Shown here: one piece after another, positions 2,384 to 27,200 of the stretch
How positions within the stretch are numbered: the first letter of the stretch is position 1
How the letters are laid out: the number at the start of each line of letters is the position of its first letter
Position numbers and translations under genes: made by a program
From: a virus
Reading direction: 5' to 3' (one strand)
IMG/VR virus record: IMGVR_UViG_3300029319_000315
Coordinates: 1-30,138 of that record
DNA: 30,138 nucleotides
Notes under the pieces: model-generated
Database searches by the model: none
Seen by the model: the letters and a program-made list of their open reading frames with translations, nothing else
Told to the model about the DNA's origin: nothing

Positions 2384-2785
2384 GTGCCTTTAGAACGGGT
2401 AAGTCGTGGTTTTAAAGATGTCAGTATGACTTTTCAGAGGAATCCTCTGAATGGTGATATTCTTGGGCTAAAAAATGAAAATGCAATTGCTCGATCCATA
2501 AGAAATATTGTTTTTACAATTCCTGGAGAAAAATTTTTTAATCAATCTTTTGGTTCTGATATAAATCAGTCTCTCTTCATGAATATTGATGAAATATCTG
2601 CAGTTATTATAAAAGATCAAATATCATCATCTATATCTAAATTTGAACCAAGAGTAAATTTAGTCGAAGTTGTTATAAATCCAGATTTTGACAATAATAG
2701 TTTTGATGCAACTATCATTTATGAAATAATAGGTGCAGATATCCCTCCACAAGAATTACAATTCGTTTTGCAGCAAACCAGGTAA
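2384..2785 (+). CDS. 25: Baseplate wedge subunit gp25
   Basis: This is the T4 gp25 homologue (GPW/gp25 family), the small wedge protein at the sheath-baseplate junction that helps nucleate sheath assembly. The length of 133 residues agrees with about 132 in T4. The family signature E-P-R is present in SKFEPRVNLVEVVINPDFD in the C-terminal half, and the N-terminal region contains GLKNENAIARSIRNIVF and FNQSFGSDI, which correspond to the alpha/beta core. The reading frame opens at a GTG codon; the next in-frame ATG would remove 14 residues including RGFKDVS, so GTG is preferred although no strong Shine-Dalgarno sequence precedes it. Only three bases separate its stop from gp6, so the two are surely co-transcribed and probably translationally coupled. 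Confidence 0.95.
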   Translation: MPLERVSRGFKDVSMTFQRNPLNGDILGLKNENAIARSIRNIVFTIPGEKFFNQSFGSDINQSLFMNIDEISAVIIKDQISSSISKFEPRVNLVEVVINPDFDNNSFDATIIYEIIGADIPPQELQFVLQQTR

Positions 2786-2788
2786 AAA

Positions 2789-4849
2789 ATGCCATTATCT
2801 AATTTCTCTAACCTGGATTTCGACCAGGTTAAAACCACACTTAGAGAATATCTAAAGGAAAACTCTAATTTTACTGATTATGATTTTGAAGGGTCAAACC
2901 TTTCATCAATATTAGATGTTCTGGCTTATAATACCTACATCACCTCATACAACGCAAACATGGTTGCGAATGAGGTATTCATTGATAGTGCCACATTAAG
3001 AGAAAATGTGGTTTCATTGGCAAGAAATATTGGATATCTTCCTAGATCAAGAAAAGCAGCAAGAGCAACTATATCATTCTTCATTGATACATCGAATATC
3101 ACCCCATCACCAAGCACAATTACCTTAAAGAAAGGTATTGTTGCTACAAGTCAAGGTTCTTTTGGTAATCAATCATTTACTTTCTGCATCTTAGATGATA
3201 TCACAGTTCCTGTTTATGATAGTATAGCATCTTTTGATGATATACCCATTTATGAAGGAACATTCCTTACATCTAATTTCACATATAACTCAAGAACACC
3301 AAATCAGAAGTTTATTCTTAATAACGTTGGTATTGACACTGAGTTATTATCAGTTACAGTAAGACCAAATCAAAATTCAACTAGATCTGTCAAGTATAGT
3401 TTACAAGATAGTCTTTTTCAGATTAAATCAGACTCAAAAGTTTACTATTTGCAAGAATCTGTAGATGAAAGATATGAATTATTATTTGGTGATGGTATCT
3501 TTGGTAAAAAGTTAGAAAATAATAATTTCATCACCGCAAATTACATTACATCGAGTGGAGATTCTGCAAATGGAGTAGATCAATTCTCATTTGCAGGTCA
3601 ATTAACTTATACAAGAAATGCAATCGAGTATACTATTACTTCGGGTATTTCATTGGTAACTACTGGTCTTCCTGCTTCTGGTGGAGAAGCAATTGAAGGT
3701 GTAGAATCAATTAAAAAGTTTGCACCAAGAATTTATGCTTCTCAAAATAGAGCATTGACGGCAAATGACTATGAAACACTGATTCCAGCAAAAATTTATC
3801 CCGAAACAGAATCAATTTCTGTATTTGGTGGAGAAGAATTAGTTCCACCGCAGTATGGTAAGGTATTCATCAGTATTAAACCAAGATTTGGGGATTTCTT
3901 ACCAAATTTGATCAAACAAAATATTAAGACAAAACTCAAGCAATATGCAGTCGCTGGAATTGTTCCAGAAATCCTTGATTTGAAATATTTGTACTTGGAA
4001 GTCAATACAAAGATCTACTACAATTCAAATCTAGCACCTTCTTCGGCATTTGTTTCAAGTATTGCTCAAAATAATGCTAATAGTTATGCAGAATCTACTG
4101 AATTGAATAAGTATGGTGCTAGATTTAAGTATAGTAAGTTTTTGAAGATAATTGATGATAGTCATGAGTCTATCACATCAAATATTACCACAGTCTCTAT
4201 GAGAAGAGACCTGAGGGTAGTTACAAATAGTTTTGCGGAATATCAGATTGGTTTTGGCAATTCATTCCATATTAAGAGTATGAATGGATACAATATTAAA
4301 ACATCTGCATTCAGAATAGCAGGTATTCAACAAAATGTATATCTTTCAGATATACCAAATAGTGATGCTATTACTGGAAGTTTATTCTTGTTTACTCTTC
4401 CTTCTGTTGGATCTCAAGACCCAACGATTGTAAGAAGAAATGTTGGAACTATTGACTATGCTTCTGGTATTATTACAATAAATCCAATAAATGTTCTTGA
4501 TGGTAAGTTAAAAGATGGTCGTCCAATAATTGAAATTGAAGCATCACCAAGTTCCAACGATGTTGTTGGATTGCAGGATCTTTATTTACAACTAGATACT
4601 AGTAGTAGTTATTTTGATACAGTTGTTGATGAAATTGCATCTGGACTTGATCCATCTGCATCTAATTACATTGTTTCGTCTAGTTATCCAAATGGCAATT
4701 TAGTTCGTGCAGGAGGACCTACAAATACAAGTATAACTAATACAGTAGGAACTACTGCATCAACAAATACATCCACCACCACTACTACTGCAGCAACAAC
4801 AACAGTTTCCACTTCAGGTGGAGCATCTAACGGTTCAAGTTCATATTAA
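2789..4849 (+). CDS. 6: Baseplate wedge subunit gp6
   Basis: This is the T4 gp6 homologue (baseplate J family), which forms the continuous inner ring of the baseplate with gp7, gp25 and gp53. The N-terminal signature NFTDYDFEGSNLSSILDVLA, followed by YNTYITSYNANMVANEVFID and GYLPRSRKAA, lines up with the corresponding T4 segment. The central part carries the ring-forming motif RALTANDYETLIPAKIYPE. The length of 686 is close to 660 in T4. The last 42 residues (645-686) are an almost pure Thr/Ser/Asn/Gly tail ending GASNGSSSY, which I do not expect from the T4 fold. The start ATG is three bases after gp25, with CCAGG at 2778-2782 as its likely ribosome site. A hairpin lies within codons 7-15. 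Arg codons are now almost all AGA. Confidence 0.95.
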   Translation: MPLSNFSNLDFDQVKTTLREYLKENSNFTDYDFEGSNLSSILDVLAYNTYITSYNANMVANEVFIDSATLRENVVSLARNIGYLPRSRKAARATISFFIDTSNITPSPSTITLKKGIVATSQGSFGNQSFTFCILDDITVPVYDSIASFDDIPIYEGTFLTSNFTYNSRTPNQKFILNNVGIDTELLSVTVRPNQNSTRSVKYSLQDSLFQIKSDSKVYYLQESVDERYELLFGDGIFGKKLENNNFITANYITSSGDSANGVDQFSFAGQLTYTRNAIEYTITSGISLVTTGLPASGGEAIEGVESIKKFAPRIYASQNRALTANDYETLIPAKIYPETESISVFGGEELVPPQYGKVFISIKPRFGDFLPNLIKQNIKTKLKQYAVAGIVPEILDLKYLYLEVNTKIYYNSNLAPSSAFVSSIAQNNANSYAESTELNKYGARFKYSKFLKIIDDSHESITSNITTVSMRRDLRVVTNSFAEYQIGFGNSFHIKSMNGYNIKTSAFRIAGIQQNVYLSDIPNSDAITGSLFLFTLPSVGSQDPTIVRRNVGTIDYASGIITINPINVLDGKLKDGRPIIEIEASPSSNDVVGLQDLYLQLDTSSSYFDTVVDEIASGLDPSASNYIVSSSYPNGNLVRAGGPTNTSITNTVGTTASTNTSTTTTTAATTTVSTSGGASNGSSSY
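2809..2831 (+). promoter_or_regulatory. Perfect 8-bp hairpin at the start of gp6
   Basis: TAACCTGG (2809-2816) pairs exactly with CCAGGTTA (2824-2831) around a seven-base loop. A second copy of CCAGGT at 2778-2783 contains the presumed gp6 ribosome site and could pair with the same ACCTGG (2811-2816). The two pairings exclude each other. Confidence 0.4.
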
Positions 4850-4866: not shown

Positions 4867-7800
4867 ATGTCAGAAACCAGAGTCCAGTTTAATACTATCG
4901 TATCTAATCAACTTCCTCTTTATGTGAGGGAGGACTTTCCGTTAATATCTGATTTTTTAAAGCAGTATTATCTTGGACAAGAGTATCAAGGTGGACCTGT
5001 TGACCTTATTCAAAATATTGATAGGTATATTAAGATTGATAATACGACTGGATTATCAGAATCGGTCGTATTATCTGGAGACTTAGATTTTAACACCACG
5101 GTAATTAATGTTGATCCTGATAAATCACCTACAGGAACTTTAGGATTCCCAGATTCGTATGGTTTGCTTCAAATTGGTGATGAAGTAATAACTTATACTG
5201 GAAAGACTGAATTCTCTTTTACTGGATGTGTTAGAGGATTTGTTGGAATTACTTCCTACAGAAGTGATATTAACAAAGAAGAAGTAGTATTTAAAGAGTC
5301 TCTTGCTGATGATCATGTAAGTGGATCTGACATTAAAAACTTAAGTTGTTTATTCTTAAAAGAATTTTTACTCAAAACCAAGCATCAAATTTTACCTGGA
5401 TTTGAAGATAGAGCATTAGCAGGCAAATTAGATCAAAATCTGTTTCTCAAGCAGTCAAAAGATTTTTATCTAAGTAAAGGTACTGATAGATCTTTTGAAA
5501 TCTTATTTAAAGCTTTATATAATGAAAATGTGCAGATCATCAGACCGGCAGAACATTTAGTATCTCCATCAAACGCTCAATACCTAGTTACTAATGATCT
5601 TGTTGTAGAACCAATTTCAGGTGATCCTTCTGAGCTGGATCATTCTACATTATATCAAGATCCATATAAGTTTGATAAAAATATTCAAAAATCTTATGGA
5701 CCAGTTACTAGTGTAGAAAAAATAAATGTTGGATATGGAGTAACATTCTATAGATTAAAGTTTGATTCTGGATACAATAGAGATATTGAAGAAGATGGTG
5801 CATTATATGGTAATTTTAAAGTAGAACCATCTACAAAAATTATTGGAAATGTTTCTGCAGGATCTACGATTGTTGATGTCGAATCAACAGTAGGTTTTGC
5901 TCATAGTGGAGAGTTATTTGTAAATTATTCTAATAGAACTACTGGAGTAGTATCATATACTTCAAAATCTCCAACTCAGTTTTTTGGTATAACAGATTTA
6001 GATAACAATATTTCTGATACTGCTGTTGTTGGTATCAATACTTTTTCATATGGACACTCTGCAGTAGATGGTAGTTTAATTGAAGTTAGAATTAACTCAG
6101 TTTTAAATTCAATTGAAATTCCAGAAGTATCTGATGAATTAGAAAGAGGTACTACTGCAAATATTACAAGTTATGGATTTACAGAAGTAAGTCCTAAAAC
6201 TCGTAATTGGTTCTATAATGTTGCTCCAGTTTATAAAGTTTCTAGTATTGAATTAGTAGATGTCTCTGATAACACTTATAAAATTACTCTAAATGTACCA
6301 AATCAATTTAGAGTTGGCGATAAGTGCGTAATCATTGGTTCAGATTCTTCAAGAAAAGAGTCAAATATTTCCACAATAATTGGAGAAAAATCTTTTACCA
6401 TAAAAGGTCAGGGAGTTCTTGACACCAATTTAACATATAAATTGCAAAGAACTATTCTTAAAGGATTATCTTCAGTTTTCCCATCAGTAGAGTCATTCTC
6501 AACCGATGTTGATAGAATTTATAAAAATAATACTAACGATTACTTGGTATCGTCACCATCTATTCCAAATTATGGTTCTCAGTCTTTAAATTCAACACTT
6601 AGAGAGAAAATTTTCTCAGGAACATTTTTAGGTGATGAGTTTGAAATTAGTGAACATGGATTTCATACTGGAGAATCTATTTACTATAAGGCAAACTCAG
6701 TTTCTCAATCTACAATAGACTCTCTCGGAAATTCAATTACTAAGACAGTTCGTGGACAAGGACTTTTTAGTGATGGATTGTATTTTATCAAACGAGTAAA
6801 TGAAAGTAAAGTAAAATTTGCTAAAAGTAGAGAAGATATCTATAAGTCTAAATTTATTTCTTTAGATAATGAGACAACAGTTACTGATAGTAGTATCATA
6901 CCATTTTCTTTTAATGATAAAACGGTAAAACCGCAAAACATCTTAAGAAAAATTTCCACACCAATAAGTGATGGAACTAGATCTGAAACCAAACCAGGTG
7001 CTACTGGAATATTTGTTAATGGTGTAGAAATTTTCAATTACAAATCTAGTGATTCCATTAAATATGGAAAAATTGAAAGCATTGATGTACTATCTGAAGG
7101 AGTGAATGTTGATGTTGTAAATCCACCAGATCTTGTTATTAAAGATGCTGTTGGTAACGGAGCATCTGCACATCTCGCAGTTTCTGGTCGATTTACCGAT
7201 ATTAAGATTGTAAACCAGGGTTTTGATTATGTAGAAACTCCCACTTTAAAAATAGAAGGTGGTAATGGTCAAGGAGCCACTGGTTCCGTTAATATGAAAT
7301 CCATTGACCATATAGCAGAATTTTATGCAGATGAAAAATCTAATCAGGTCAATATAACACAATCTACAATTGGATTTTCGACATATCATAAATTTAGAAA
7401 TGCAGAAAAAGTAATTTACAGAACAAAGTTACAAAATGCAGTTTCCGGAATAGTAACTGATTCAACTTACTATGTAAATACTGTAGATGAATTTACAGTA
7501 AAACTTCATGAAACTGAAAGTCAAGCTCTAAATGGAAGTAATCCAATATCATTGACTTCTTACGGTGAAGGAAAGCACTCTTTACAATCTTTTAGTAAAA
7601 AGTTAGTTGTACAATCAATAAACATTGTAGACAGTGGATCTGGGTACGAAAATAAAAAGAGAACGGCTCAGGCAGTATCTGGAGTCAGTACATCCTCAAA
7701 TTCTTTTAGTATTAGAAACCATGACTATAATTCTGGAGAAAAGGTAAAGTATACATGTACAGATACTCCTGCTTCTGGAATTTCTGTAGGCACGGAGTAT

Positions 7801-10800
7801 ATTTTAACTAAGATCGATGACAATTCTTTCAAATTATCCGAAGTTGGATTATCTAATGATCCCAACTTTTACTACAGAAATAAACAATATGTAGACATTA
7901 CGTCTGTTGGAGTAGGAACTCATATATTCAACTATCCTGATATTACGGCAACTTTAATTGGAAAAGTTGGAATATCTTCAGTTGGTACAGAAACATTTAA
8001 AGCATCATTACTTCCTATTGTAAGAGGATCGGTACAATCTGTTCATGTAGAAAATTCTGGATCTAACTATGGATCTGAGGAAATTTTAAATTTTGATAGA
8101 CAACCACAAATTATAGTAAATTCTGGATCAAATGCACAGGTAAAGGCAATTGTTAGTGCAGGTTCAATTCAAGAAGTCATTGTTTTGAACGGTGGTTCTG
8201 GATATTATTCCACTCCCGATTTAATTATAGACGGTGAAGGATCTGGAGCAGTATTGACTCCAATCATTGAAAATGGATCATTAGTTTCTGTTACTGTAAT
8301 TGACAAAGGAATTGGATTTGATGAAGATAGTACAGTAATTGATGTTATCCCTTCTGGGTCTACTACTAATGTTCCAAAGTTTAAATGCAATATTCAAAAT
8401 TGGACTGTAAACTTATTCAGTAAATATGAAAATGTATTTACTGATGATGATGGATTTTTGACAGAAGGTCTTTATAAAAATGAAATTCAATACACTCACA
8501 TCTACACCCCAAGAAAATTAAGAGAGAAGGTTTACAGCGTAAATCAAGTTGGTGAGATTTTATATGGAAAACAAGATTTAAGAAAAATTAATGGCATTGA
8601 ATCCGACTCAAAATACCATTCACCAATATTAGGATTTGCATATGATGGAAATCCGATTTATGGTCCTTACGCATATTCATCCAAGACTGGTGGATTTATA
8701 ACTCAGATGTTGTCTGGGTATTCCTTATCAGATAATCGGACTAATAGACCATCCACTTCAATTTATCCCGAAGGATTTTTTGTTGAAGACTATGTATATA
8801 AAAAGTCTTCTAGTGATTCGGTTCTTGATGAAAATAATGGAAGATTTTGCATAACACCAGATTATCCAAATGGAACTTATGCATATTTTACAACAATAGA
8901 CGGAAGATTTCCAGAAACTTTTGGTGTATTTAAAAATTATAAAAAACCAGCTTTCCCATATGTCATTGGACATAATTACCATTCAATTCCAAATAATTTT
9001 AACTTTACCAATGATTCAAACTCTAATGATTATGATTTGGAAGCAAATGGTTGGAGAAGAAATACAGATCCAATTAATTTAATAGAAGATGAATCTCAAT
9101 ATCCATATTTGAACGTTCCAAATAAATTAAATCAAACTGCTGAGATTGTTGGAACAAATCCAGGTGTTGTTGGTGGTGTTGGAATTATTACTGGAGGAAC
9201 CGGATATAAAGTTGGTGAATCTATAACCTTTGATAATACTAATACTGGAGGAACAGGAGCACAGGCTAAAATTAGTAGAGTTAAAGGCAAGACAGTAAGT
9301 TCTATAAGTGTTAACTCAATCATCCTGGAAAATATTGAATTTTATCCTGGACAAAAAAATGGTGAGTATTTTGCCTTTGCTAATGATCCACATGGAATAG
9401 AGAATTTAGATATAATTTCCATTTCAGGTTTATCTACAACATCTTCTTTCCTTGAAAAATCTTATGTTGCTGGAATATCTACTAATAAATTAACCTTAGC
9501 TGGTGTTGGATCTACAGCAGTCGCAATCGGAACAGATGGATCTACTGGATTAACAACGTACTTCAGTGTTACTGGAAATCTTGGATATCCTCATATTAGA
9601 GAGAATGACATTCTTCAGTCTGGAACTGAGAAGTTTAAAGTTCTGAATATTGATGTTGAGTCTTCAAGAATAAGAGTTTTAAGAAAAGTAAGTGGGTCAA
9701 TTGGAACCACATTATCGATAGGAGATCATTTCTACGAAATACCAAGAAAACTGAAGATTTCTTCTGGATTTAAAACAGATTCTAACTTAAAATTCAATAA
9801 ACAAATCTACTTTAATCCAACAGAATCTATCGGTGTCGGAATAGGTTCAACATTAACTATCTCCAATCCTGGATTTGGGGCTACCCAATTGTTTGTACCA
9901 ACCAAATCAATTTTTGTAAGAAATCATAACTTAGAGACAGGTGATCAATTAACTTATTCTGCTGGAGATGGTGGAAGTGGAATCATAGTTCAAGATGAGA
10001 CTAACGTTGGGGTTGGAACAATCTTAGCAGATGGACAAAAGTTATTCGTTGCCAAAATCGATAATAATTTAATTGGACTCTCTACAGTAAGAGTTGGACT
10101 CGGAACTACTGGAACATTTGTTGGAATTGCTGAGACTTGTAGAAATTCTACAACGTTGCTCTTCACAAATTTTGGTGCTGGAGACACTCATAGTTTTGTA
10201 ACCAACTACTCTGCGATAACTGGAGAAATTCAGAGAAATATTGTTACAGTTTCAACCGCACAGACTCATGAATTAAGCCCAGATCACAATGTAACGGTTT
10301 CTATAAGTCCAAATAATACTAAGAATATAGCATTATCGTATAATGATACTCACAGAAGAATAATTGTCAATCCTGTAGGATTTGTTACCGCAGGTGTTAA
10401 TACTTCAACAAATTCAATTACTCTTAATTCGCATGGATTTGAAACTGGAGATAAAATTATTCATACATCAGATACCCCTTCTGAGGGATTGACTAGTGAA
10501 AAGATTTACTATGTTGTAAAAGTTGATAATAATACAATCAAACTTTCAAATACTCTTACTGATTCTAAGAAAATTAATCCAGTAATTGTTGGAATTAGTA
10601 GTGCTTCTCATGGCAATATCAATCCAATTAATCCAAAAATTGATCTTTACAAAAATTCTAAAGTAATATTTGATTTATCGGATGATTCTTTATCTTATGT
10701 AAAACAAGGATCTACGTATTCCGCATTTGAATTTAACTTATATGAAGATGAGAACTTTACTTCTATGTGGAATACTTCATCATCTACTGGAGTATTTGAA

Positions 10801-13800
10801 TTTTCAAAATCAGGTAAATCTGGAACTTCTGGAGCATCTGCAACTTTATTAGTAAATGATAAGATTCCAGAAAAATTATATTACCGTTTAGATCCCATTT
10901 ATGAAGGAAATATTCCTGCAGTAAAATCTGAAATTATTTCCGATAGTGAAGTTGTTTCTGGAAGTAAATTATTAATAAAAGATAGTAAATATAATGGAAC
11001 TCATGACATAACAGTTAATTCTGCTAGTAGTTTTACATATACTCTTAGTGATGTTCCTGAAGAAGTTTCTTATGGATCTACATCAACTATTTCTTACATT
11101 ACTGATTGTACTCATACAACAGGAGAGATTGCTCAAATTGACATTACAAATCCAGGTAGAAATTATTACTTAACACCAGGAATTTCTAATATTAATACTT
11201 CAAACGGTAAAGGAGCAATTCTTAAAGTTGATCCTAAGAATATTGGTGGACTGAAGAAATTAAACTTCAAGGATATTGGATTTAATTATCCTTCAGATAA
11301 AACTTTAAATCCAAGAGTTTTATTCCCACAAACTATTAAGATTGACTCTCTTGCTTCAATAGAATCTATTGGAATAACTTCTTTTGGAAGAGGATTTAAT
11401 ATTCCACCAAAACTGATTGTTATTGACGGCAAAACAAATAAAGTAGTAAAAGATTTAGCATTCAAGGTAACTCTTGGTAATAGAGATGTTGAAATTTTAC
11501 AGAATACTAATGGCATCAGTAATGTAACTCCATTGATCATACCAACTGAAAGTGGTGCTGGCGTAGGTATTAAAACAATAACATATAACTCTTCAGGAAT
11601 TGCTACAGCAACTCTTTCTGTAGGATTTAGCACTATCAACTCATTCCCATTTGCAGTTGGGGATAAAGTTTTAATTGAAAATACGAGTGTTAGTGTTGGG
11701 TCTACTGGGAAAGGATTTAACTCTGAAAATTATGATTATAAGTTATTCACTTTAACTGGAGTAACTGAAAATCTTGGTGGAATTGGTAATGTTACTTTTG
11801 ATATGTCAGAATTTTTGAAAGAATCAGAAATTCCTGGTACATATGATACTGTTAATTCAACAGGAAAAATTCTTGCACAAAAACACTTCCCAATTTTTGA
11901 TACAATTCTTGTTACTAAAGATTATTCGATTGATGAAGTTGTAAAATCAGAAAATGCAACTGGTATTGTAGAAGGATGGGATTCAAAAACATCATCTCTT
12001 AGAGTTTCTTCAAATGATAACTTTGCTGTTGGAAGTGTAATTGAAGGAACTTCTTCAAAAGTTCTTGGTATAGCAAATTCAATCAAAGCATACGAGTCAT
12101 ATGCTAATTTTGAAGCAATGTCCAAAACTACTCTTGGGTGGTTAGACGATAAAGGATCTTTAAACTCAGATCTTCAAAGAATTCAAGATAGTTATTACTA
12201 TCAGAATTTTGCATATTCGATTAAGTCAAAAGTTCCATATGATACTTGGAATGAAACTGTATCTACACTGAATCATACTTTAGGATTTAAAAAGTTTGCA
12301 GATCTCCAAATGGAGTCTTCTAATGATAATAATGGATCTGTTAAGACAAATTCATCTTCGTTTGAACAAGTAACGAATCTCGATGGATTTGCAAGCTTAC
12401 ATTGTGTCCATGACTTTGATTTAGTTACAGAAACTAATAGAACTCAATCTTCTAGATTAGTTTCTAATGAGATTGTCTTTTCTAATAGAATTCTTATAGA
12501 TTTCTTTGAATCTGTTGGTAATAGAGTTCTTTCCATTGACAATTTCCAATCTCAGTTTAATAGTAATCCTAGACCAACTGAGTTTTCAATTATTGATTCA
12601 TTTAGATCATCTGAAATTAGAACAAGAAAGTTTATTACTTATGTAAGAGACAAGAGATTCACTGCACAAAGACAGATGATGTTGGTAAATGTCATGCATG
12701 ATGACATTTTTGGATATATAAACCAATATGCTAGAGTTGAAACTGCATATGATCAAGGATCTTTTGATCTTTCATTCTCTTCAGGAACTGTAGATGCAAA
12801 TCTTCAATTCTATCCAACTAAGTTTACTGTAAATGATTATAATGTCAGTGTTCTTTCTTATGACTTTAAGGACACACTTCTTGGAACAGGAACAACAAGT
12901 TTAGGTGGTGTAGCAATTATTGATACCACCAGTGTTAATGTAAATGCTGGTATAAAAACGACTATAGTATCGATTGCAAATACATATACTTCCGCAAAAG
13001 TTTTAGTGAGTATCAGCGCAGATACCTCTATTACTTCTGGATTAGATAATAATTTTGAATATCAAGAACTGAATATTCTACATAATGGTTCTGATATCAA
13101 TATGCTAGAAATTGCAAGGATGTCAACTGAGATATCAAATTCTGCTCCTGGTCTTGGAACATATCATCCTTATTTTAAAGGAGATAATTTAAATATTGAC
13201 TTTTATCCAGCAACTGGAATAGGAGCTATCGGAGTTATTAATACTGTTTTCGTTGGACTTGCCACAGAAACTTCTAGTGGAATTGGAACCATTGAGTTAA
13301 GTAGAGCAAAGGTTGAGGCAAAAACTACCACTATCGCAACATCACCTTCTCCTGGACCAGTTCCTGTTGCTCAGTATTCTAATAATTATGACGGAGCATA
13401 CTTTATTGCTCAAGTTGTTGATACTACGAATAATGAACGCCAGTTATCTGAAATTGTTGTCGTTGATGATTATGTAGAGTCTACAACAACTGCAGATACC
13501 TGTTATGTTGAATATGGAAATATTGAAACTTCTAGTGGATTAGGAACTTTTGGAACAGTAGTTTCTAATGAAGGAGTTGTTTCACTCACATTTACTCCAA
13601 TTGCAAATGCTAATATTGAAGTTAATGTTTATACAAACGCAATTGGTTTAATTGAAGATACTACTGTCCCATCTGGTGTAGATTTTACCAATACATCAAT
13701 TAATTCTATAGTTGGGGAGTATGAAGGAACTGAACGTGATGTTAAGAGAAAATTCTATCTTGAACATGAAAATCTTGGAATTTTTGAAAGATATTTTGAA

Positions 13801-16800
13801 GGAAATAATTCAAATATTGTTAATACCCTTCAAAATTTAATCTCTATTCCAAATCATTATTTTGTTACTGGTGAAAAAATTAGATATGCTCATGTTGGAT
13901 CTGCAAATTCATCAATCGTAATTGCACCCACAACTTTTGTTGGCGTATCTAATACAACATTCTTACCTGCGGAAAATCTTTATGTAGTTAAGTATGATGA
14001 AAATAATATTCAAATTGCGACCAGTGCAGAAAATGCACTTAAAGCAATACCTGAAGTTGTAGATATTGTTCAAGTTGGAATTGGATCTTCGCATAGATTT
14101 ATATCAACTAATCAAAACGCAAAAGTTCTTGTTTCTATTGATAATATTATACAATCTCCAGTAGTATCAACGGCAGTAACAACTACTCTTTCAAAAGAAC
14201 TTACTATTTTGGATGATTTGATTACTTTTAATGAAATTACTTCGTTCTTTGGATCAGATTTAGTTAAGATTAATAACGAAATAATGAAGATCGAAGGTGT
14301 TGGTATTGGTAGCACTAATAGAATTAGAGTACGTAGAGGTTGGTTAGGAACAAATCTTGGAGTTGGTGCTACTGGTGATTTGGTTACTAAAGTTGTTGGA
14401 AACTATAATATTGTCGATAACGATATTATCTTTTCAGAAGCTCCTTTTGGAAATATTCCATTAGGACTAGAAACAAATGAACCTGATGAAAGAGATTGGA
14501 CTGGATTATCAACTTCTTCAAGTTTCCATGGAAGAAGTTTCATGAGATCTGGTATTCTGCAAGGGACTAATGAGTCTTATTATAAGAATTATGTTTTTGA
14601 AGATGTTTCTCAAGGATTCAATGCATTAAATAATGAATTTACATTAAAGTCGGATGGATCGGATGTTTCAGGAATAGAAAATGAAAATGCAATCATTCTT
14701 GTAAATGATGTTTTCCAGTCACCAGGAATTTCTGATCAATATGTACTTGAAGAATCTGCTGGAATTACTTCAGTAAGATTCCAAGGAACTGAAACAACAC
14801 CATTAGGACCTGATGTTGGAATTTCCAATTTCCCTAGAGGGGGAGTTATTGTTTCAGTTGCATCCACTGAAGGACTTGGATTCCAACCATTAGTTGCTGC
14901 TGGTGGAACGGCAATCGTATCTTCAGCGGGAACTATTACTGCAGTGTCCATTGGCAATAGTGGTTCTGGATATAGATCTGGTATTCAAACAAATCTTTCT
15001 GTAGGAGTGCAACTTCCAGATACTACAGGTACAACAGTAATACCAATTGGAATTGCTTCTATTTCTGAAGGACATGTAACTTCGGTTGCTATCACAACAG
15101 ATAGAGTTTTCTATGCTCCACGCGATATTTCAAATGTCCTTTACGACAACACAACTGGTATTACTAGAGTTACAACTTCTACTTCACATGGTTTATCTGG
15201 TAATGAAGAAGTTATTGTTTCTGGAATCGCATTCACATGCGATTACACTGGATCTGAACCAGTTAATATCTCTAACGTTGAGTACAATAATGTAACTGGC
15301 ATTATGGTAGTTACAACTTCTGGTCCACATAATCTTTCGACAAGTGGTCAGAAGAGTGATGTTCTGTTAACTGGTATTGGAATGACTTGTGATTTGGATA
15401 ATGGTGGTTCTACACATGTATATCCAAGAACAACTGATCCTGCATATTGTGGTACTCCAGTTCTTGCAGTTAATAGTGCTACAGAATTTGAAGTCAATGT
15501 TGGAACTTCTACAGTTGCTACTTATTATCAAAGTGGTGGAGTCGCACAACCTGTTCTTATTGCACCAAGATTAAATAATAACTCCGATAGTGGATTTGAT
15601 CCTGCATCGCAGGGGTCAACTGTTCTTAGAGTTATTGATAGCACTAATTTTGAAATAAACACTGGCATTTCCACTCGGGAACACTTCTATGCAAGATGTG
15701 GAACTGTTAGTAAACCAGTTGATATTGTATTTGATGAACCAGCATCTTATTCTAATATGAGACTGACATACAGTTCCTCCTCTGTTGCTGGAGTTGGAAC
15801 TGAGGCAACTATTGATGTAGTTGTTGGACAGGGATCCAGTGTTATTGACTTTGAAATTAAAAATACTGGATACGCATATGGTAATGGTGAGATTCTGACA
15901 GTTGAAGTTGGTGGAACCACTGGAATTCCGACTACATCATCATACAAAGAATTCCAGGTAACTATTGATGAAGTTGCTACTGACAAATTCAGTGGTTGGT
16001 CTTTAGGAACTCTCGAAGTTCTCGATAATGTTGATGAATATATTGACGGGCAACGAAAGGATTTCCCATTATTCCTCAATACTGAAAGAATATCTATCGT
16101 TTCTGCTAAAGGATCAAGAATTAGGGTTCAAGATGTTCTTTTAGTATTCGTTAATGACATTCTTCAAGTTCCTGGAGAATCTTATATATTTGAGGGTGGA
16201 AGTGTAATTACATTTACTGAACCAATTGCTGTTGGAAATAATATCAATATTTTGTTCTATAAAGGAACGGGAGATAGTGATGTTATTCTTAGAAATGTGA
16301 TTAATACAGTTAAAAAAGGTGATACTCTGCAAATAGTTCATGATAAGTCAATAGATCAGCAAAAGTATTTGACTGAAGAAACAAGGGATGTTCAAGATAT
16401 TCTTTCTACTGATCTTGTTGAGACAAATACTTATGATGGTCCAGGAATCACAAATGATGTAACTTTAGAAAGACCAGTTGTATGGTGTAGACAAACTGAA
16501 GATAAATTTATCAATCAAATTGCTGTTGGTAAGGATAGAGAACTCTATGAACCTATTATTAATCCAATTTCTTATATTATCAAACCTGTTGCAATTGGAT
16601 CAACAACAATCTATGTTGATAGTTTAAGACCTTTATTTGACGGTAGAAACGAAAATGATACAGATTTGTCTTTCCAAAACAAAGTTAAATTTATATCACA
16701 AAAACCTAGAACTGGGGCAGTTGCATCTGCAATTGTTTCTGGTCTTGGTACTATTTCATCAATTTCAATTTCTGATGGCGGATCTGGTTACTCTTCAGTA

Positions 16801-17607
16801 CCAGATGTAACGATTGGTAATGTAGTTGGATCGGGTGCAGTAGCAACAGCAGTTCTTACTGATGGTTCGGTGACTTCTATAACATTGACAAATGCTGGAA
16901 TAGGATATACAAATACAAATCCACCACAAGTTCTTATTGCACCACCTTCACATTCTGAAGAAGAAGTTACTGTTGACTCTTACTCAGGAGATAATGGAGT
17001 TATTGTTGGATTTGGAACTACAACCATAGGCGATTTTGATGAAATGATCTTTGATTTCCATATTCCTTATGACTCATTCCTTAGAGACACTTCTTTAGTT
17101 GGAACAGCAATTACTCTAAGTTCTATATCGGTTGGTGACTATTTCACGACCTTCAATTCAAATGTAGGTTTTGAACGACCACCATTCTACACATATGCTA
17201 ATAATGGATCTGCATCACCAATTGGAATAGCAACCCACTTCATTGATACTGTGCATCAAGCAAAACGAGTTGAAGTTGTTTCTAGAGAAGTTGCTGGAGT
17301 TTCAACAAACGTACTGAGAGTAAATTCGGTTATTACTGGTATTGGAACTGTTAACTTTAGTGTTAATAATATTACTATGGATAATTCTTACCTTACTGTT
17401 GATAAAACTGCAGGTGGTTCTGGTTATGATGGTGGAATAACAACTTCAAATTATTTTGGAGAATTCTCTTGGGGAAGAATTAATCTAGTAGGAAGATCTA
17501 AACAGGTTTCTTACGATGCAGAAGTTCTTAATGGACATGCTGGTATTTCAACATCAGTTATTGTGACAAGAAAAGATTCACTTAGATCCAGGAGATACCT
17601 GGTATAA
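4867..17607 (+). CDS. 7: Giant gp7-like baseplate wedge/virion protein, 4246 aa
   Basis: Probably the wedge initiator gp7, greatly enlarged; cyanophage annotations often call it VrlC or structural protein. It follows gp6, as gp7 does in T4. From memory, three blocks match the C-terminal third of T4 gp7: PLYVREDFPLISDFLKQYY (residues 17-35), DFYLSKGTDRSFEILFKALY (199-218), and SIKSKVP...W...V....H..GF (about 2451-2474). Some 2,200 residues lie between the last two. That insert holds H-x-x-x-T-G-E repeats (His 597, 952, 1687, 1856; further copies at 2997, 3441 and 3488 beyond it), glycine-tyrosine repeats (S-G-S-G-Y) and a YHYH-type domain at about 1249-1372. The C-terminal region has LVFVNDILQVPG at 3759-3770, RPVVWCRQTED, and two more glycine-tyrosine repeats. 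No signal peptide or membrane segment is visible. The remaining repeats look like beta-rich peripheral domains. Confidence 0.85.
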   Translation: MSETRVQFNTIVSNQLPLYVREDFPLISDFLKQYYLGQEYQGGPVDLIQNIDRYIKIDNTTGLSESVVLSGDLDFNTTVINVDPDKSPTGTLGFPDSYGLLQIGDEVITYTGKTEFSFTGCVRGFVGITSYRSDINKEEVVFKESLADDHVSGSDIKNLSCLFLKEFLLKTKHQILPGFEDRALAGKLDQNLFLKQSKDFYLSKGTDRSFEILFKALYNENVQIIRPAEHLVSPSNAQYLVTNDLVVEPISGDPSELDHSTLYQDPYKFDKNIQKSYGPVTSVEKINVGYGVTFYRLKFDSGYNRDIEEDGALYGNFKVEPSTKIIGNVSAGSTIVDVESTVGFAHSGELFVNYSNRTTGVVSYTSKSPTQFFGITDLDNNISDTAVVGINTFSYGHSAVDGSLIEVRINSVLNSIEIPEVSDELERGTTANITSYGFTEVSPKTRNWFYNVAPVYKVSSIELVDVSDNTYKITLNVPNQFRVGDKCVIIGSDSSRKESNISTIIGEKSFTIKGQGVLDTNLTYKLQRTILKGLSSVFPSVESFSTDVDRIYKNNTNDYLVSSPSIPNYGSQSLNSTLREKIFSGTFLGDEFEISEHGFHTGESIYYKANSVSQSTIDSLGNSITKTVRGQGLFSDGLYFIKRVNESKVKFAKSREDIYKSKFISLDNETTVTDSSIIPFSFNDKTVKPQNILRKISTPISDGTRSETKPGATGIFVNGVEIFNYKSSDSIKYGKIESIDVLSEGVNVDVVNPPDLVIKDAVGNGASAHLAVSGRFTDIKIVNQGFDYVETPTLKIEGGNGQGATGSVNMKSIDHIAEFYADEKSNQVNITQSTIGFSTYHKFRNAEKVIYRTKLQNAVSGIVTDSTYYVNTVDEFTVKLHETESQALNGSNPISLTSYGEGKHSLQSFSKKLVVQSINIVDSGSGYENKKRTAQAVSGVSTSSNSFSIRNHDYNSGEKVKYTCTDTPASGISVGTEYILTKIDDNSFKLSEVGLSNDPNFYYRNKQYVDITSVGVGTHIFNYPDITATLIGKVGISSVGTETFKASLLPIVRGSVQSVHVENSGSNYGSEEILNFDRQPQIIVNSGSNAQVKAIVSAGSIQEVIVLNGGSGYYSTPDLIIDGEGSGAVLTPIIENGSLVSVTVIDKGIGFDEDSTVIDVIPSGSTTNVPKFKCNIQNWTVNLFSKYENVFTDDDGFLTEGLYKNEIQYTHIYTPRKLREKVYSVNQVGEILYGKQDLRKINGIESDSKYHSPILGFAYDGNPIYGPYAYSSKTGGFITQMLSGYSLSDNRTNRPSTSIYPEGFFVEDYVYKKSSSDSVLDENNGRFCITPDYPNGTYAYFTTIDGRFPETFGVFKNYKKPAFPYVIGHNYHSIPNNFNFTNDSNSNDYDLEANGWRRNTDPINLIEDESQYPYLNVPNKLNQTAEIVGTNPGVVGGVGIITGGTGYKVGESITFDNTNTGGTGAQAKISRVKGKTVSSISVNSIILENIEFYPGQKNGEYFAFANDPHGIENLDIISISGLSTTSSFLEKSYVAGISTNKLTLAGVGSTAVAIGTDGSTGLTTYFSVTGNLGYPHIRENDILQSGTEKFKVLNIDVESSRIRVLRKVSGSIGTTLSIGDHFYEIPRKLKISSGFKTDSNLKFNKQIYFNPTESIGVGIGSTLTISNPGFGATQLFVPTKSIFVRNHNLETGDQLTYSAGDGGSGIIVQDETNVGVGTILADGQKLFVAKIDNNLIGLSTVRVGLGTTGTFVGIAETCRNSTTLLFTNFGAGDTHSFVTNYSAITGEIQRNIVTVSTAQTHELSPDHNVTVSISPNNTKNIALSYNDTHRRIIVNPVGFVTAGVNTSTNSITLNSHGFETGDKIIHTSDTPSEGLTSEKIYYVVKVDNNTIKLSNTLTDSKKINPVIVGISSASHGNINPINPKIDLYKNSKVIFDLSDDSLSYVKQGSTYSAFEFNLYEDENFTSMWNTSSSTGVFEFSKSGKSGTSGASATLLVNDKIPEKLYYRLDPIYEGNIPAVKSEIISDSEVVSGSKLLIKDSKYNGTHDITVNSASSFTYTLSDVPEEVSYGSTSTISYITDCTHTTGEIAQIDITNPGRNYYLTPGISNINTSNGKGAILKVDPKNIGGLKKLNFKDIGFNYPSDKTLNPRVLFPQTIKIDSLASIESIGITSFGRGFNIPPKLIVIDGKTNKVVKDLAFKVTLGNRDVEILQNTNGISNVTPLIIPTESGAGVGIKTITYNSSGIATATLSVGFSTINSFPFAVGDKVLIENTSVSVGSTGKGFNSENYDYKLFTLTGVTENLGGIGNVTFDMSEFLKESEIPGTYDTVNSTGKILAQKHFPIFDTILVTKDYSIDEVVKSENATGIVEGWDSKTSSLRVSSNDNFAVGSVIEGTSSKVLGIANSIKAYESYANFEAMSKTTLGWLDDKGSLNSDLQRIQDSYYYQNFAYSIKSKVPYDTWNETVSTLNHTLGFKKFADLQMESSNDNNGSVKTNSSSFEQVTNLDGFASLHCVHDFDLVTETNRTQSSRLVSNEIVFSNRILIDFFESVGNRVLSIDNFQSQFNSNPRPTEFSIIDSFRSSEIRTRKFITYVRDKRFTAQRQMMLVNVMHDDIFGYINQYARVETAYDQGSFDLSFSSGTVDANLQFYPTKFTVNDYNVSVLSYDFKDTLLGTGTTSLGGVAIIDTTSVNVNAGIKTTIVSIANTYTSAKVLVSISADTSITSGLDNNFEYQELNILHNGSDINMLEIARMSTEISNSAPGLGTYHPYFKGDNLNIDFYPATGIGAIGVINTVFVGLATETSSGIGTIELSRAKVEAKTTTIATSPSPGPVPVAQYSNNYDGAYFIAQVVDTTNNERQLSEIVVVDDYVESTTTADTCYVEYGNIETSSGLGTFGTVVSNEGVVSLTFTPIANANIEVNVYTNAIGLIEDTTVPSGVDFTNTSINSIVGEYEGTERDVKRKFYLEHENLGIFERYFEGNNSNIVNTLQNLISIPNHYFVTGEKIRYAHVGSANSSIVIAPTTFVGVSNTTFLPAENLYVVKYDENNIQIATSAENALKAIPEVVDIVQVGIGSSHRFISTNQNAKVLVSIDNIIQSPVVSTAVTTTLSKELTILDDLITFNEITSFFGSDLVKINNEIMKIEGVGIGSTNRIRVRRGWLGTNLGVGATGDLVTKVVGNYNIVDNDIIFSEAPFGNIPLGLETNEPDERDWTGLSTSSSFHGRSFMRSGILQGTNESYYKNYVFEDVSQGFNALNNEFTLKSDGSDVSGIENENAIILVNDVFQSPGISDQYVLEESAGITSVRFQGTETTPLGPDVGISNFPRGGVIVSVASTEGLGFQPLVAAGGTAIVSSAGTITAVSIGNSGSGYRSGIQTNLSVGVQLPDTTGTTVIPIGIASISEGHVTSVAITTDRVFYAPRDISNVLYDNTTGITRVTTSTSHGLSGNEEVIVSGIAFTCDYTGSEPVNISNVEYNNVTGIMVVTTSGPHNLSTSGQKSDVLLTGIGMTCDLDNGGSTHVYPRTTDPAYCGTPVLAVNSATEFEVNVGTSTVATYYQSGGVAQPVLIAPRLNNNSDSGFDPASQGSTVLRVIDSTNFEINTGISTREHFYARCGTVSKPVDIVFDEPASYSNMRLTYSSSSVAGVGTEATIDVVVGQGSSVIDFEIKNTGYAYGNGEILTVEVGGTTGIPTTSSYKEFQVTIDEVATDKFSGWSLGTLEVLDNVDEYIDGQRKDFPLFLNTERISIVSAKGSRIRVQDVLLVFVNDILQVPGESYIFEGGSVITFTEPIAVGNNINILFYKGTGDSDVILRNVINTVKKGDTLQIVHDKSIDQQKYLTEETRDVQDILSTDLVETNTYDGPGITNDVTLERPVVWCRQTEDKFINQIAVGKDRELYEPIINPISYIIKPVAIGSTTIYVDSLRPLFDGRNENDTDLSFQNKVKFISQKPRTGAVASAIVSGLGTISSISISDGGSGYSSVPDVTIGNVVGSGAVATAVLTDGSVTSITLTNAGIGYTNTNPPQVLIAPPSHSEEEVTVDSYSGDNGVIVGFGTTTIGDFDEMIFDFHIPYDSFLRDTSLVGTAITLSSISVGDYFTTFNSNVGFERPPFYTYANNGSASPIGIATHFIDTVHQAKRVEVVSREVAGVSTNVLRVNSVITGIGTVNFSVNNITMDNSYLTVDKTAGGSGYDGGITTSNYFGEFSWGRINLVGRSKQVSYDAEVLNGHAGISTSVIVTRKDSLRSRRYLV

Positions 17608-22649: not shown

Positions 22650-24203
22650 ATGGCTGCCATTATAACTGATCAGATTAGAATATTAAATGCAGGAAATTTT
22701 GTAGCTGGAGTTACTAATTCTAGTAATTCTTACTATTCTTTTATTGGATTACCAAATCCTGCAGATTATCAGGAGGATTGGAATCAAGACCCACCATCTC
22801 CTAAAGATAATTTTGATCAAGAGAGTGATTATTGGGACACAATGGTTGCTCTCAAAAAAATTAATGCGGCAGACATTAGGCAAGTTGTTCCTAAGAGAGT
22901 TTGGTCTTCTGGAACTACCTATGACATGTATCGTCATGACTACAGCAGAACAAATACTGCGGTAGTCTCTGGTTCTACATCATTATATCTTGCAAATTAT
23001 ATTGTAATGAATAGTGATTTTAGAGTCTATATTTGCCTTCATAACGGAATTGATCCAGATAATCCAAGTGCTAAACCATCCTTGGACGAACCAACATTTA
23101 CTGATTTAGAACCAAGATCTGCGGGAACAAGTGGTGACGGTTATATTTGGAAATATCTTTATAGTATCAGACCAAGTGATGTTGCCAAATTTGAATCAAC
23201 AGAATACCTTCCAGTTCCTTCCGAATGGTTGACTTCTGCAGATAACTCTGCAGTTAGAGAAAATGCTGTTGATGGATCAATCAAAATCATCACCATTACT
23301 AATAGAGGTGTTGGATTAGGAACTGCAAATACAACATACACCAATGTTCCAATCCGAGGTGACGGATCTGGTGCAGAATGTACTATTACAATTGATGGTA
23401 ATCAACAGGTAGGTTCAATAACAGTTTCTGATCAAGGGTCAGGATATACTTACGGCAGTGTAGATTTTGTTGCAGGAGGAGTTCCTACAGGAACTACTAG
23501 ACCAGAGTTTAATGTAATTATTCCACCTCAAGGTGGACATGGTGCAAATATCTACAGAGAACTTGGTGCATATAATGTGCTTCTTTATTCAAGAATTGAG
23601 AACGACAACACCAACCCAGATTTTATAACAGGAAATCAAATTGCAAGGATTGGTATTGTAGAAAATCCTCAGCAGTTTGGATCAACTAATCTTCTTACCG
23701 CAGATAAAGCAAGTGCTCTGGGTGCTTTAAAATTAGTTGGAACTGGATATAGCACAGCTACATTTGATCCAGACTCTTACTTTACACAAACTATTTCTAC
23801 AGGAACAACTGCTGTTGGTAGAGTTGTAAATTATGATTCTACAACTGGAGTTCTTAAATTCTGGCAAGATAGATCACTGGCAGGATTTGCTACTGTAGGA
23901 ACTGGACAAACAAATCCAACTTATGGGTATGAGTTGCAAGAGTTTACTGCAACTCCAGGATCGGGTGGTTCTTTAACTGTTACTCCATCTACTGGATTAA
24001 ACTTGACAATTGATACAGACTTTACAGGTATATCTACCGTAATAAATAATAGGACATACTATCTTGGTCAAACTTTTACAAATGGTGTTGCCAATTCTGA
24101 GGTCAAGAAACACTCTGGTAGTATAGTTTACGTTGATAATAGACCTTCTATTACAAGATCGTCAAATCAAAAGGAAGACATAAAAGTTATTTTGCAGTTC
24201 TAA
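22650..24203 (+). CDS. 8: Baseplate wedge subunit gp8, enlarged
   Basis: T4 gp8 homologue, a wedge protein that dimerises and binds gp7, gp10 and gp6. Segments matching T4 gp8 (from memory) are QVVPKRVWSSGTTYDMYRHD, SGDGYIWKYLYSIRPSDV in the middle, and the C-terminal HSGSIVYVDNRPSITRSSNQ followed by KEDIKVILQF. The length of 517 exceeds 334 in T4. The extra length lies largely between about residues 210 and 460 and includes a glycine-tyrosine repeat (VSDQGSGYTYGSVDF) like those in the giant protein. The start has only a weak purine-rich site (AAAGAAAAAAG). Six bases separate its stop from the next gene. Its place after an inserted fibre-protease pair differs from the direct 7-8 order of T4. 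Confidence 0.93.
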   Translation: MAAIITDQIRILNAGNFVAGVTNSSNSYYSFIGLPNPADYQEDWNQDPPSPKDNFDQESDYWDTMVALKKINAADIRQVVPKRVWSSGTTYDMYRHDYSRTNTAVVSGSTSLYLANYIVMNSDFRVYICLHNGIDPDNPSAKPSLDEPTFTDLEPRSAGTSGDGYIWKYLYSIRPSDVAKFESTEYLPVPSEWLTSADNSAVRENAVDGSIKIITITNRGVGLGTANTTYTNVPIRGDGSGAECTITIDGNQQVGSITVSDQGSGYTYGSVDFVAGGVPTGTTRPEFNVIIPPQGGHGANIYRELGAYNVLLYSRIENDNTNPDFITGNQIARIGIVENPQQFGSTNLLTADKASALGALKLVGTGYSTATFDPDSYFTQTISTGTTAVGRVVNYDSTTGVLKFWQDRSLAGFATVGTGQTNPTYGYELQEFTATPGSGGSLTVTPSTGLNLTIDTDFTGISTVINNRTYYLGQTFTNGVANSEVKKHSGSIVYVDNRPSITRSSNQKEDIKVILQF

Positions 24204-24209
24204 AGAATT

Positions 24210-27200
24210 ATGCCACAACAAACGAACCTCAATGTATCCCCATACTTTGACGACTTTGACGCGCAAAATGATTATTATAAAGTATTATTCAAACCAGGGT
24301 ATCCAGTTCAAGCAAGAGAACTAACATCTCTTCAATCAATATTACAAAACCAGATTGAAAAATTTGGTCAACACTTTTTTAAAGAAGGTGCTGCTGTAAT
24401 TCCAGGAAATACTAATTATAATGGTCAATATTATGGAATTCAGTTGCAGAATAATTATCAAGGAGTTCCAGTTTCTGCTTATGCGGATCAGTTAGTAGGA
24501 ACAAGAATTACTGGAGATAGATCAGGGGTTTCTGCGTTTGTTGATAAAATTCTTTATCCAGAAGATTCTGATAATGGAAATCTGACACTTTATATTAATT
24601 ATTTAAATGCAGGTTCTGTAGATAATACTACTGTAGAGTTTTTGGATGGAGAAACTTTAATTTGCAGTGAGCAAATTGATTCAGGTCTTCTTGGAAATTC
24701 TTCAATTCCTGCTGGTTCTCCATTTGCGTCAACTATAGACGTTGATGCAACTGCAAATGGTTCATCATTTGATATTGCAGAAGGTGTCTATTTTATCAGA
24801 GGTTCTTTTGTTAATGTTTCTGCTGAGACTCTGATTCTTGATCAATACAGCAATGGACCAAGTTATAGAGTAGGTCTTTTCATTACAGAAGAGATTGTAA
24901 CTTCGGATATTGATGAAACTTTAAATGATAATTCTCAGGGTTTCAGTAACTACTCTGCTCCAGGTGCAGATAGACTTAGAATAACTGCGTCTCTGTTCAA
25001 AAAACCATTAACAGATTTTAATGATGATAACTTTGTTCACCTAGCAACCATTGAAAATGGTGTAATGGTGAATAGATCTAAAAAAGGTCTTACCATAGGA
25101 TCTGGAGGTGTAGCTTATAAAGACATTGAAGAGACTTTAGCAAGGAGAACTTCTGAAGAGTCTGGCGATTACTATGTAAAACCATTTACAATCAGAGCAT
25201 TAGAATCTCTAAATGATCATCTCGGTAATAGAGGTTTGTATGAAGAAGGACAAACTACTCCAACTGGCGGAGTAGTTTCTGAGGATCTTGGTGTATATAA
25301 AGTATCTCCAGGAAAAGCATATGTCAAAGGATTTGCTGTAGAAACAGTTGGTTCTACAATTATTGATTTTGATAAACCAAGAACTACAAGAACTTTAGAA
25401 GGTCAGAATTTAATTTACAATACTGGTCCTACTCTCACTTTAAATAGAGTTTTTAGATCTCCAACTGTTGGACTTGGTAATACTTATTTTGTAAGTTTGA
25501 GAGATCAAAGGGTTGGTTCTGTACAAGATCCCGTTACTCATCCAGGAAAAGAAGTTGGAGTTGCTAGAGTATATGACTTTAGACTTGAGTCTGGATCTTA
25601 TGATACATCTAACGCAAATTTAAATCAATGGAATCTCTGTCTGTATGATATACAAACTACCACAGAGATTACATTAAACCAAGCAATTAATCTTAGTATT
25701 CCAACTCATGTAAAGGGTGCTAATAGTGGAGCTACTGGTTTCTTGAGACATGAAGTTACTGCAGGAACTGCAGTAACTGTTTATGAAACTAGTGGTTCTT
25801 TTATCCCCAATGAAAGACTAATTTTTAATGGAATTCCTGATGGAAGAATTGCAATAGCAGTTAATACACATAGCATTTCTGATGTTAGATCTGTATTTGG
25901 TGGTGGTGGAAATACTGGAATCAATACTTTTAGTGCGGATGTTATTCCATCAACCTCTTTTGTTGTTGGAATTGCTACAGTCAGTTCTGCTTCAAATGGA
26001 ATTAGTACTATTATTAGTAATAATCCAAAGTTCCCCGGAACTGTCGTTAAAGAAAATGATTTAGTTGAATATACTGATACTGCTGTAGATGATCCTATCA
26101 TCGCAAGAGTAACAGGAGTTACTGCCAATTCAATTGCTGTTGAGGGTGTAGAGTCTGTAGGAGGTATTGCTGCTGGAGGATTGCCATCTACTGTATTATC
26201 AGTAACTGATCTTAGAATTCTAAGAACACAATTATCACCATCATCTGATGATACTCTTTTTACAGCACTTCCAAAAGATAATATCGCATCTTTGTCATTG
26301 ACAGATGCTTCACTGACAATTAGAAAGACTTTCACAGTTAATATTTCTGCAAATCAGTTGAGTGGAAATGGAGTAACAGCAGATAATAATGAAACTTTCC
26401 TTCCATTTGATGAGGAAAGATATTTACTTACAAGGTCTGATGGAACTACAGAAGCACTTACTTCTGATATGATTGATATCAGTACTGATGGTTCTGCTCT
26501 TCAGATTAGAAATCTTGGGTCTAATGATGTTGGATCTACTTTAGTTGCTTCACTGAAAAAAATTAAACCAAAATCAAAAGTTAAGATTAAAAATAGAGTT
26601 AATTCTATTATTATTGATAAATCAAAACTTGAGGGATCTGGTATTGGCGCAACAACTCTCAATAATGGACTGGTTTATGGAAGTTATCCATATGGAACTA
26701 GAGTTGAAGATGAAGAGATTTCACTGAATGTTCCTGATATTGTAGAAATTCATGGAATCTTTGAATCTTCAGGAACCGATGATCCTTCTGCACCTTCATT
26801 AACTCTTCAGACTATTAATAGTCAATCAACAACTACTGCAGAAATTCTAATTGGTGAGCAGTTAGTTGGACAGACAAGTGGTAGTGTTGCAGTTGCTGTT
26901 GAAATTACAAATAGCAATACTATTAGATATACACTTAAGAATGCAATTGGATTTACAGAAGGTGAAACTGTAGAATTCAAAGAATCTGGTGTCACTGCAG
27001 TAATATCTGCAAATACATCTTTGGATAGAGACGTATCTTCAAACTTTACATTTAAGTCTGGTCAAGAAAATACTTTCTATGATTATGGAAGACTTAAAAG
27101 GAGACCAAACTCTTCAGAACCTTCTAAGAAAATTAAAGTTTATTTCTCTAATGCATATTTTGATCCAACTGATGATGGTGACATTACTACAGTAGAGTCT

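Follow-up and report, generated by a model that had tools for sequence, protein, structure and literature searches.

A gp7-type wedge protein of 4,246 residues with a giant insert at the site of T4 domain V

The sea is rich in T4-like phages. A known relative of the protein analysed here is T4 gp7 (PDB 5IV5 and 5HX2; 9F4A for the variant of Klebsiella phage KP1). The type VI secretion counterpart of gp7, TssG, anchors TssK trimers by two loops (PMC6300606), and in phage XM1 the tail spike is bound by parts of the gp7 counterpart, gp17, that are not resolved in the structure (PMC10457771). According to a 2020 statement, cyano- and pelagimyophages lack T4 gp7 and have VrlC in its stead (PMC7029224). 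Sullivan et al. (2010) listed gp7 among the non-cyanophage core genes, and in the same work protein T4-GC969 of phage S-SM1 was detected in purified virions (PMC3037559). We looked in the literature for a baseplate structure from a cyanomyovirus; the search turned up only the tail of the unrelated Anabaena phage A-1(L).

The DNA studied here (the window) is a stand-alone virus record of 30,138 bases. Its giant ORF starts with ATG 17 bases past gp6 and lies directly after gp6 and before gp8, with two extra genes preceding gp8 (Table 1). The order gp25-gp6-gp7-gp8-VrlC is kept in the cultured phages and, among about 30 contigs, in the ones long enough to include the neighbouring genes. By Pfam, window gp6 retains the helical stem together with C-terminal domains I and III, the last of these under the cut-off. 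Upstream of the baseplate genes, a gene at 1306-2019 matches the ferredoxin-labelled PHROG 3704. The fibre-like gene contains a 66-base tandem repeat at 18806-18941, and the region is highly variable among phages of about 90% identity. The subtilase appears to have a full catalytic triad, with Asp in VDGQFDPNHPEF, His in NHGAHVAGT and Ser in NGTSMASPQ; L133 and L142 carry distant versions only (43% and 26%), and most relatives are without it.

Table 1. Features of the window, with coordinates and the evidence for each.
Feature	Position	Strand	Evidence or remark
gp25 (sheath initiator, wedge subunit)	2384..2785	+	Pfam PF04965 6e-13; PHROG 261
gp6	2789..4849	+	Pfam Gp6-like_1st 6e-16, Gp6_C-I 2e-6, Gp6_C-III 4e-4 (below cut-off)
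Giant gp7, 4246 aa, 460 kDa	4867..17607	+	PHROG 2885 over residues 1-4241, E=0; S-SM2 orthologue annotated gp7
Core helix 1 (residues 1-39)	4867..4983	+	HMM E 4e-18; tied to T4 645 onward via OC gp7
First, smaller slot, helix 1 to block 1 (residues 40-187)	4984..5427	+	HMM positions; alignment A2
Block 1 (residues 188-237)	5428..5577	+	HMM 5e-24; equivalent to T4 gp7 ~730-760
Giant slot insert (residues 238-2428, 238 kDa)	5578..12150	+	T4 domain V fills same slot
Apparent remnant of domain-V-type beta domain start (residues 245-300)	5599..5766	+	hhalign 65%, E 6e-5, 0/40 shuffles
YHYH domain (residues 1174-1347), inside insert	8386..8907	+	Pfam PF14240 2e-26; conserved in relatives
Weak domain-V-like stretch before block 2 (residues 2371-2412)	11977..12102	+	hhalign 25%, E 8e-4, 0/40 shuffles
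Block 2 (residues 2429-2484)	12151..12318	+	HMM 1e-25; equivalent to T4 gp7 ~862-895
C-terminal half (residues 2578-4246, 179 kDa)	12598..17604	+	Independent ORF in L152, L158, L160, L161
Residues 3411-3619	15097..15723	+	Nearly all missing from L133 and L142, 90% identical to window
Fibre-like protein, 1,101 aa	17630-20935		N-terminal 45 residues match gp10 (PHROG 958)
Subtilase (S8)	20935-22617		Sits between gp7 and gp8
gp8, next conserved wedge gene	22650..24203	+	Pfam Phage-Gp8 3e-18
VrlC-type gene	24210..30137	+	PHROG 358, DUF4815; runs off contig end; without gp7 blocks

An earlier note on this DNA, made from the sequence, had proposed that three stretches of the giant ORF match T4 gp7. 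All three are present, and the homology of the ORF to gp7 is confirmed about as securely as sequence methods allow. The block HMMs, which were built without any T4-type sequence, both matched, in the right order, each of the five T4-type gp7 proteins tested; in T4 gp7 itself the matches lay at 729-758 (7e-10) and 865-891 (1.7e-3), while the best reversed-sequence control reached E 0.5. When every ORF in the window and in 164 loci was scanned, block 1 preceded block 2 in every intact homologue, that is, every ORF carrying both blocks (136/136). ORFs with a single block were contig ends or broken frames, except for four T4-type gp7 proteins with block 2 at E 0.001-0.007. When profiles were compared directly with that of the T4-type gp7 family, a check of the kind that the note had suggested, the match was clear for residues 1-300 (96%, E 2e-9, score 73) and less so for the block-2 region (55%, E 1.2e-4, score 37), against top scores of 25 and 22, respectively, from 60 column-shuffled control profiles. 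Block 2 alone is marginal PDB-wide (E 0.1-0.2), though gp7 chains are its sole matches. The match to T4 is direct for blocks 1 and 2, whereas for helix 1 (17-35 in the note) the link to T4 645-690 runs solely via compact homologues. T4 gp7 matches PHROG 2885 weakly, over 29 residues, and therefore the gp7 link was tested independently of PHROG.

The gp7 core in the window begins at residue 1 of the ORF, so the large N-terminal part of T4 gp7 (domains I-IV, about residues 1-640) is absent, as had been noted. These domains are also missing in the compact homologues and are thus a feature of the T4 lineage. There was no Pfam match to domain VI (PF21456) in the giant ORF and no NCBIfam match to P2 gpI / tail protein I at E 0.1. 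Pfam PF23786 (Baseplate_wedge) gave 20.4 bits in the window, under the curated cut-off of 27, and 29-49 bits in the compact homologues.

The cyanophage and T4-type groups are linked by gp7 of Ochrobactrum phage OC (631 aa). When this protein was searched against 177,635 distinct PDB sequences with phmmer, the sole significant match was gp7 (9f4a, E 8e-7), its residues 6-311 aligning with 645-923 of 9f4a and spanning both blocks. A ten-member profile was likewise significant in the PDB only for two T4-type gp7 sequences (4.5e-8 and 1e-7); alignment A2, with its 10 rows, proved too diverse as a seed for the contig scan. By tblastn, OC gp7 found hundreds of T4-type phages, and among the matches listed the annotations were gp7 or baseplate wedge. 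Moreover, the AlphaFold2 model of a natural 449-aa compact homologue, of moderate quality (pLDDT 64, pTM 0.29), was searched with Foldseek against 350,542 PDB chains and matched 9f4a (6e-10), 5iv5 (9e-9) and 5hx2 (2e-7); below E 1e-3 there were gp7 chains only. Its global superposition on gp7 was poor (TM 0.19, rmsd 21), and therefore the Foldseek support is for local fold and sequence together, not for overall shape.

As the note had seen, about 2,200 residues separate the two blocks; the distance from block 1 to block 2 is 2,191-2,192. The length of this slot is graded from 93 to 2,712 residues within one gene family. It measures 93-116 residues in the compact homologues and 106 in RB43; BUCT608 has 258, most environmental contigs have 326-434, pelagiphages 503-541 and phiM12 802. 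Longer slots are those of S-RIM32 (1,583), the window (2,192), S-SM2 (2,215), Bellamy (2,225), MED4-213 (2,347) and S-SM1 (2,712). The smaller slot before block 1 also varies, with 42-44 aa in compact homologues, 149 in the window and 648 in S-SM1. In L110, L111, L122 and L123 about 143 extra residues stand before the core helix, either as a third place of growth or because an upstream start was taken.

The note had the core newly opened to take the insert, but in T4 the same slot already contains Pfam domain V (766-861, 96 residues). With hhalign, T4 domain V matched the domain that opens the slot in mid-length homologues (86%, E 5e-6, 0/40 shuffles). The giant ORF has no Pfam match to PF21427, and its domain-V start comes from the hhalign comparison listed in Table 1. 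A compact-only slot profile gave no signal against the window; the signal needs the wider mid-length family. Since T4 has domain V in the slot and the window appears to keep its start, growth within domain V or behind it describes the insert better than a fresh interruption of the core.

Two beta modules repeat in both the slot insert and the C-terminal half, some of the copies being weak. One, with the motif H-x-F-x-(T/S)-G-(E/D), lies at residues 590-665, 825-890, 938-1030, 1679-1751, 1841-1915 and 2984-3068, and the other, GGxGY, at 731-815, 1080-1165, 1426-1483, 2083-2141, 3343-3416 and 3935-4020. An AlphaFold2 model of insert residues 930-1480 was mostly beta but weak (pLDDT 59), with confident parts at about 930-1030 and 1080-1165, and had no significant PDB match. 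Identity of the giant gp7 to those of S-SM2 and Bellamy is fairly even, mostly 40-60% and 61-66% at the N-terminus. A hypervariable cassette is therefore unsupported within the S-SM2-like clade, where the insert is not freely swapped.

In four contigs (L152, L158, L160 and L161) the gp7 ORF stops at about window residue 2571-2577, and a new ATG a few bases past the stop opens an ORF that matches the window from 2581; this second ORF has 1,496-1,501 aa in the three split loci where it is complete. Whichever the direction of change, this shows that residues 2578-4246 are able to exist as a separate polypeptide. As relatives encode them as a separate gene, gp7 proper comprises residues of about 1-2577 and the rest is not needed in gp7. 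In a quick tree the four split loci form one supported clade among fused relatives; a single gene fission near residue 2577 is thus the likeliest origin, with the root of that tree uncertain.

The gp7 in this ORF was not as hidden as the note had put it, since its identity is already present in the annotation of near relatives: GenBank labels the orthologues of S-SM2, S-SSM7 and Bellamy as gp7 or 'baseplate wedge initiator', and PHROG 2885 is annotated as 'baseplate wedge subunit'. The S-SM1 protein T4-GC969 (6,180 aa) is a homologue of window gp7. Some labels look like errors. The gp7 of HTVC008M (L003 14001-17051) carries the RefSeq label 'head closure Hc2', while two other genes downstream are labelled 'baseplate wedge initiator', and S-SSM7 has a second gp7-labelled gene (L017 18890-27895) with neither block, which is likely mislabelled. 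What is new here is the identity of the slot, the series of its lengths, the apparent remnant of domain V, a C-terminal half that can be separate, and a correction about VrlC.

That correction also bears on the note, which had taken the giant ORF for a VrlC-type gene. The ORF has no match to PHROG 358 or DUF4815; the ORF at 24210 has that match and is the VrlC-type gene, separate and further downstream. A VrlC-type gene does follow gp8 in the loci reaching that far, in keeping with the published statement that gp7 is missing from these phages and that VrlC takes its role. However, in cyanophages, HTVC008M, Melnitz-2 and others the gp7 core sits in another gene, the one right after gp6, and VrlC-type ORFs match neither block 1 nor block 2. 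Gene order and block HMMs thus contradict the statement in PMC7029224: the gp7 and VrlC genes are both present, in HTVC008M itself with only gp8 between them, and replacement of gp7 by VrlC is next to untenable. The probability that short motifs merely came together by chance in a very long protein is negligible. Each motif is short when taken alone and block 2 is marginal by itself, but the ordered pair recurs without exception, the shuffled and reversed controls were negative, and the unbiased PDB searches returned gp7 as the sole significant match, which together rule out a chance match.

Two further readings accept the gp7 core. The ORF could be a large fibre or adhesin that has borrowed the core as an anchor, the working gp7 being encoded elsewhere; most of its length is beta-module sequence resembling other virion proteins, and the window is a 30-kb fragment only. 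This is hardly likely, given that the giant ORF occupies the place that gp7 has in T4, between gp6 and gp8, that each locus examined has one gp7 gene (that of L021 broken into two ORFs), and that the compact homologues found at this position consist of little beyond the core. Alternatively, once the baseplate is assembled, a protease such as the subtilase encoded nearby might sever the insert from the core, leaving separate pieces in the virion. The apparently intact triad of that enzyme and the clade in which the C-terminal half is a protein of its own would fit such cleavage, but we regard it as very improbable, most relatives with the same giant gp7 having no subtilase between gp7 and gp8.

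Instead, we hold it very probable that the ORF is a Kyanoviridae-type gp7, in which a core that builds the wedge with gp6 is interrupted, at a domain-V slot, by an arm of about 2,190 residues and is followed by a C-terminal half. The N-terminal helix, block 1 and block 2 form a small universal gp7 core, which would bind two gp6 copies as a (gp6)2-gp7 heterotrimer and build each of the six wedges. Between blocks 1 and 2, at the site of T4's 96-residue domain V, the chain would exit the core, run through repeated beta modules including the YHYH domain and return to complete the core, before continuing past it as a second beta-rich region of 1,670 residues, in some relatives a separate protein. 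Six copies projecting outward would add arms of about 1.4 MDa (insert) and 1.1 MDa (C-terminal half) around the baseplate, and the extra density on each wedge predicted by the note is plausible on these grounds. The arms may take the place of the N-terminal domains of T4 gp7 as a platform for peripheral parts and for host contact, a role for which the anchoring loops of TssG and the spike-binding parts of XM1 gp17 provide the basis. It is possible, though we would not expect it, that the domain-V slot is a general growth site for a covalent baseplate periphery in T4-like phages, and that in marine cyanophages the slot arm and C-terminal half replace the T4 network of gp7 N-terminal domains, gp10 and gp11 and make the first host contact.

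In summary, the gp7 core is identified across the T4-like cyanophage group, the claim of a missing gp7 is corrected, and a small loop domain, domain V of T4, appears to have grown about twentyfold in the window. A slot that ranges so widely in one wedge protein makes it testable whether phages enlarge their baseplates by growing one core loop, and the compact relatives (400-630 aa) suit structural work.

Among known systems, S-SM2 gp7 (ADO97439) is the same gene as that of the window, with 47% identity over the full length and the greatest divergence around residues 3451-3600, although S-SM2 is without the two genes that the window has between gp7 and gp8. The compact homologues of OC, Stenotrophomonas phage BUCT608, Caulobacter phage Cr30, Sinorhizobium phage phiM12 and pelagiphage HTVC008M share the core and the gene order, in which gp8 is followed by a large gene of the VrlC type or an equivalent one, but have 503-1,016 aa and slots of 96-802 residues. 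The VrlC-type protein shares the baseplate operon with window gp7 and is the product of a different gene. T4 gp7 and window gp7 have in common the helical core, block 1, slot and block 2 and their place between gp6 and gp8, and the slot of window gp7 appears to open, like that of T4, with a domain-V-type fold; window gp7 differs in being without domains I-IV and a Pfam match to domain VI, and in having a slot of about 2,190 residues instead of about 100 and the extra C-terminal half. TssG and Vibrio phage XM1 gp17 (242 residues) are small and without a giant insert, and we liken them to window gp7 by function: they work alike in that a small core sits in a 2:1 heterotrimer while its loops carry the host-contact parts (PMC6300606, PMC10457771).
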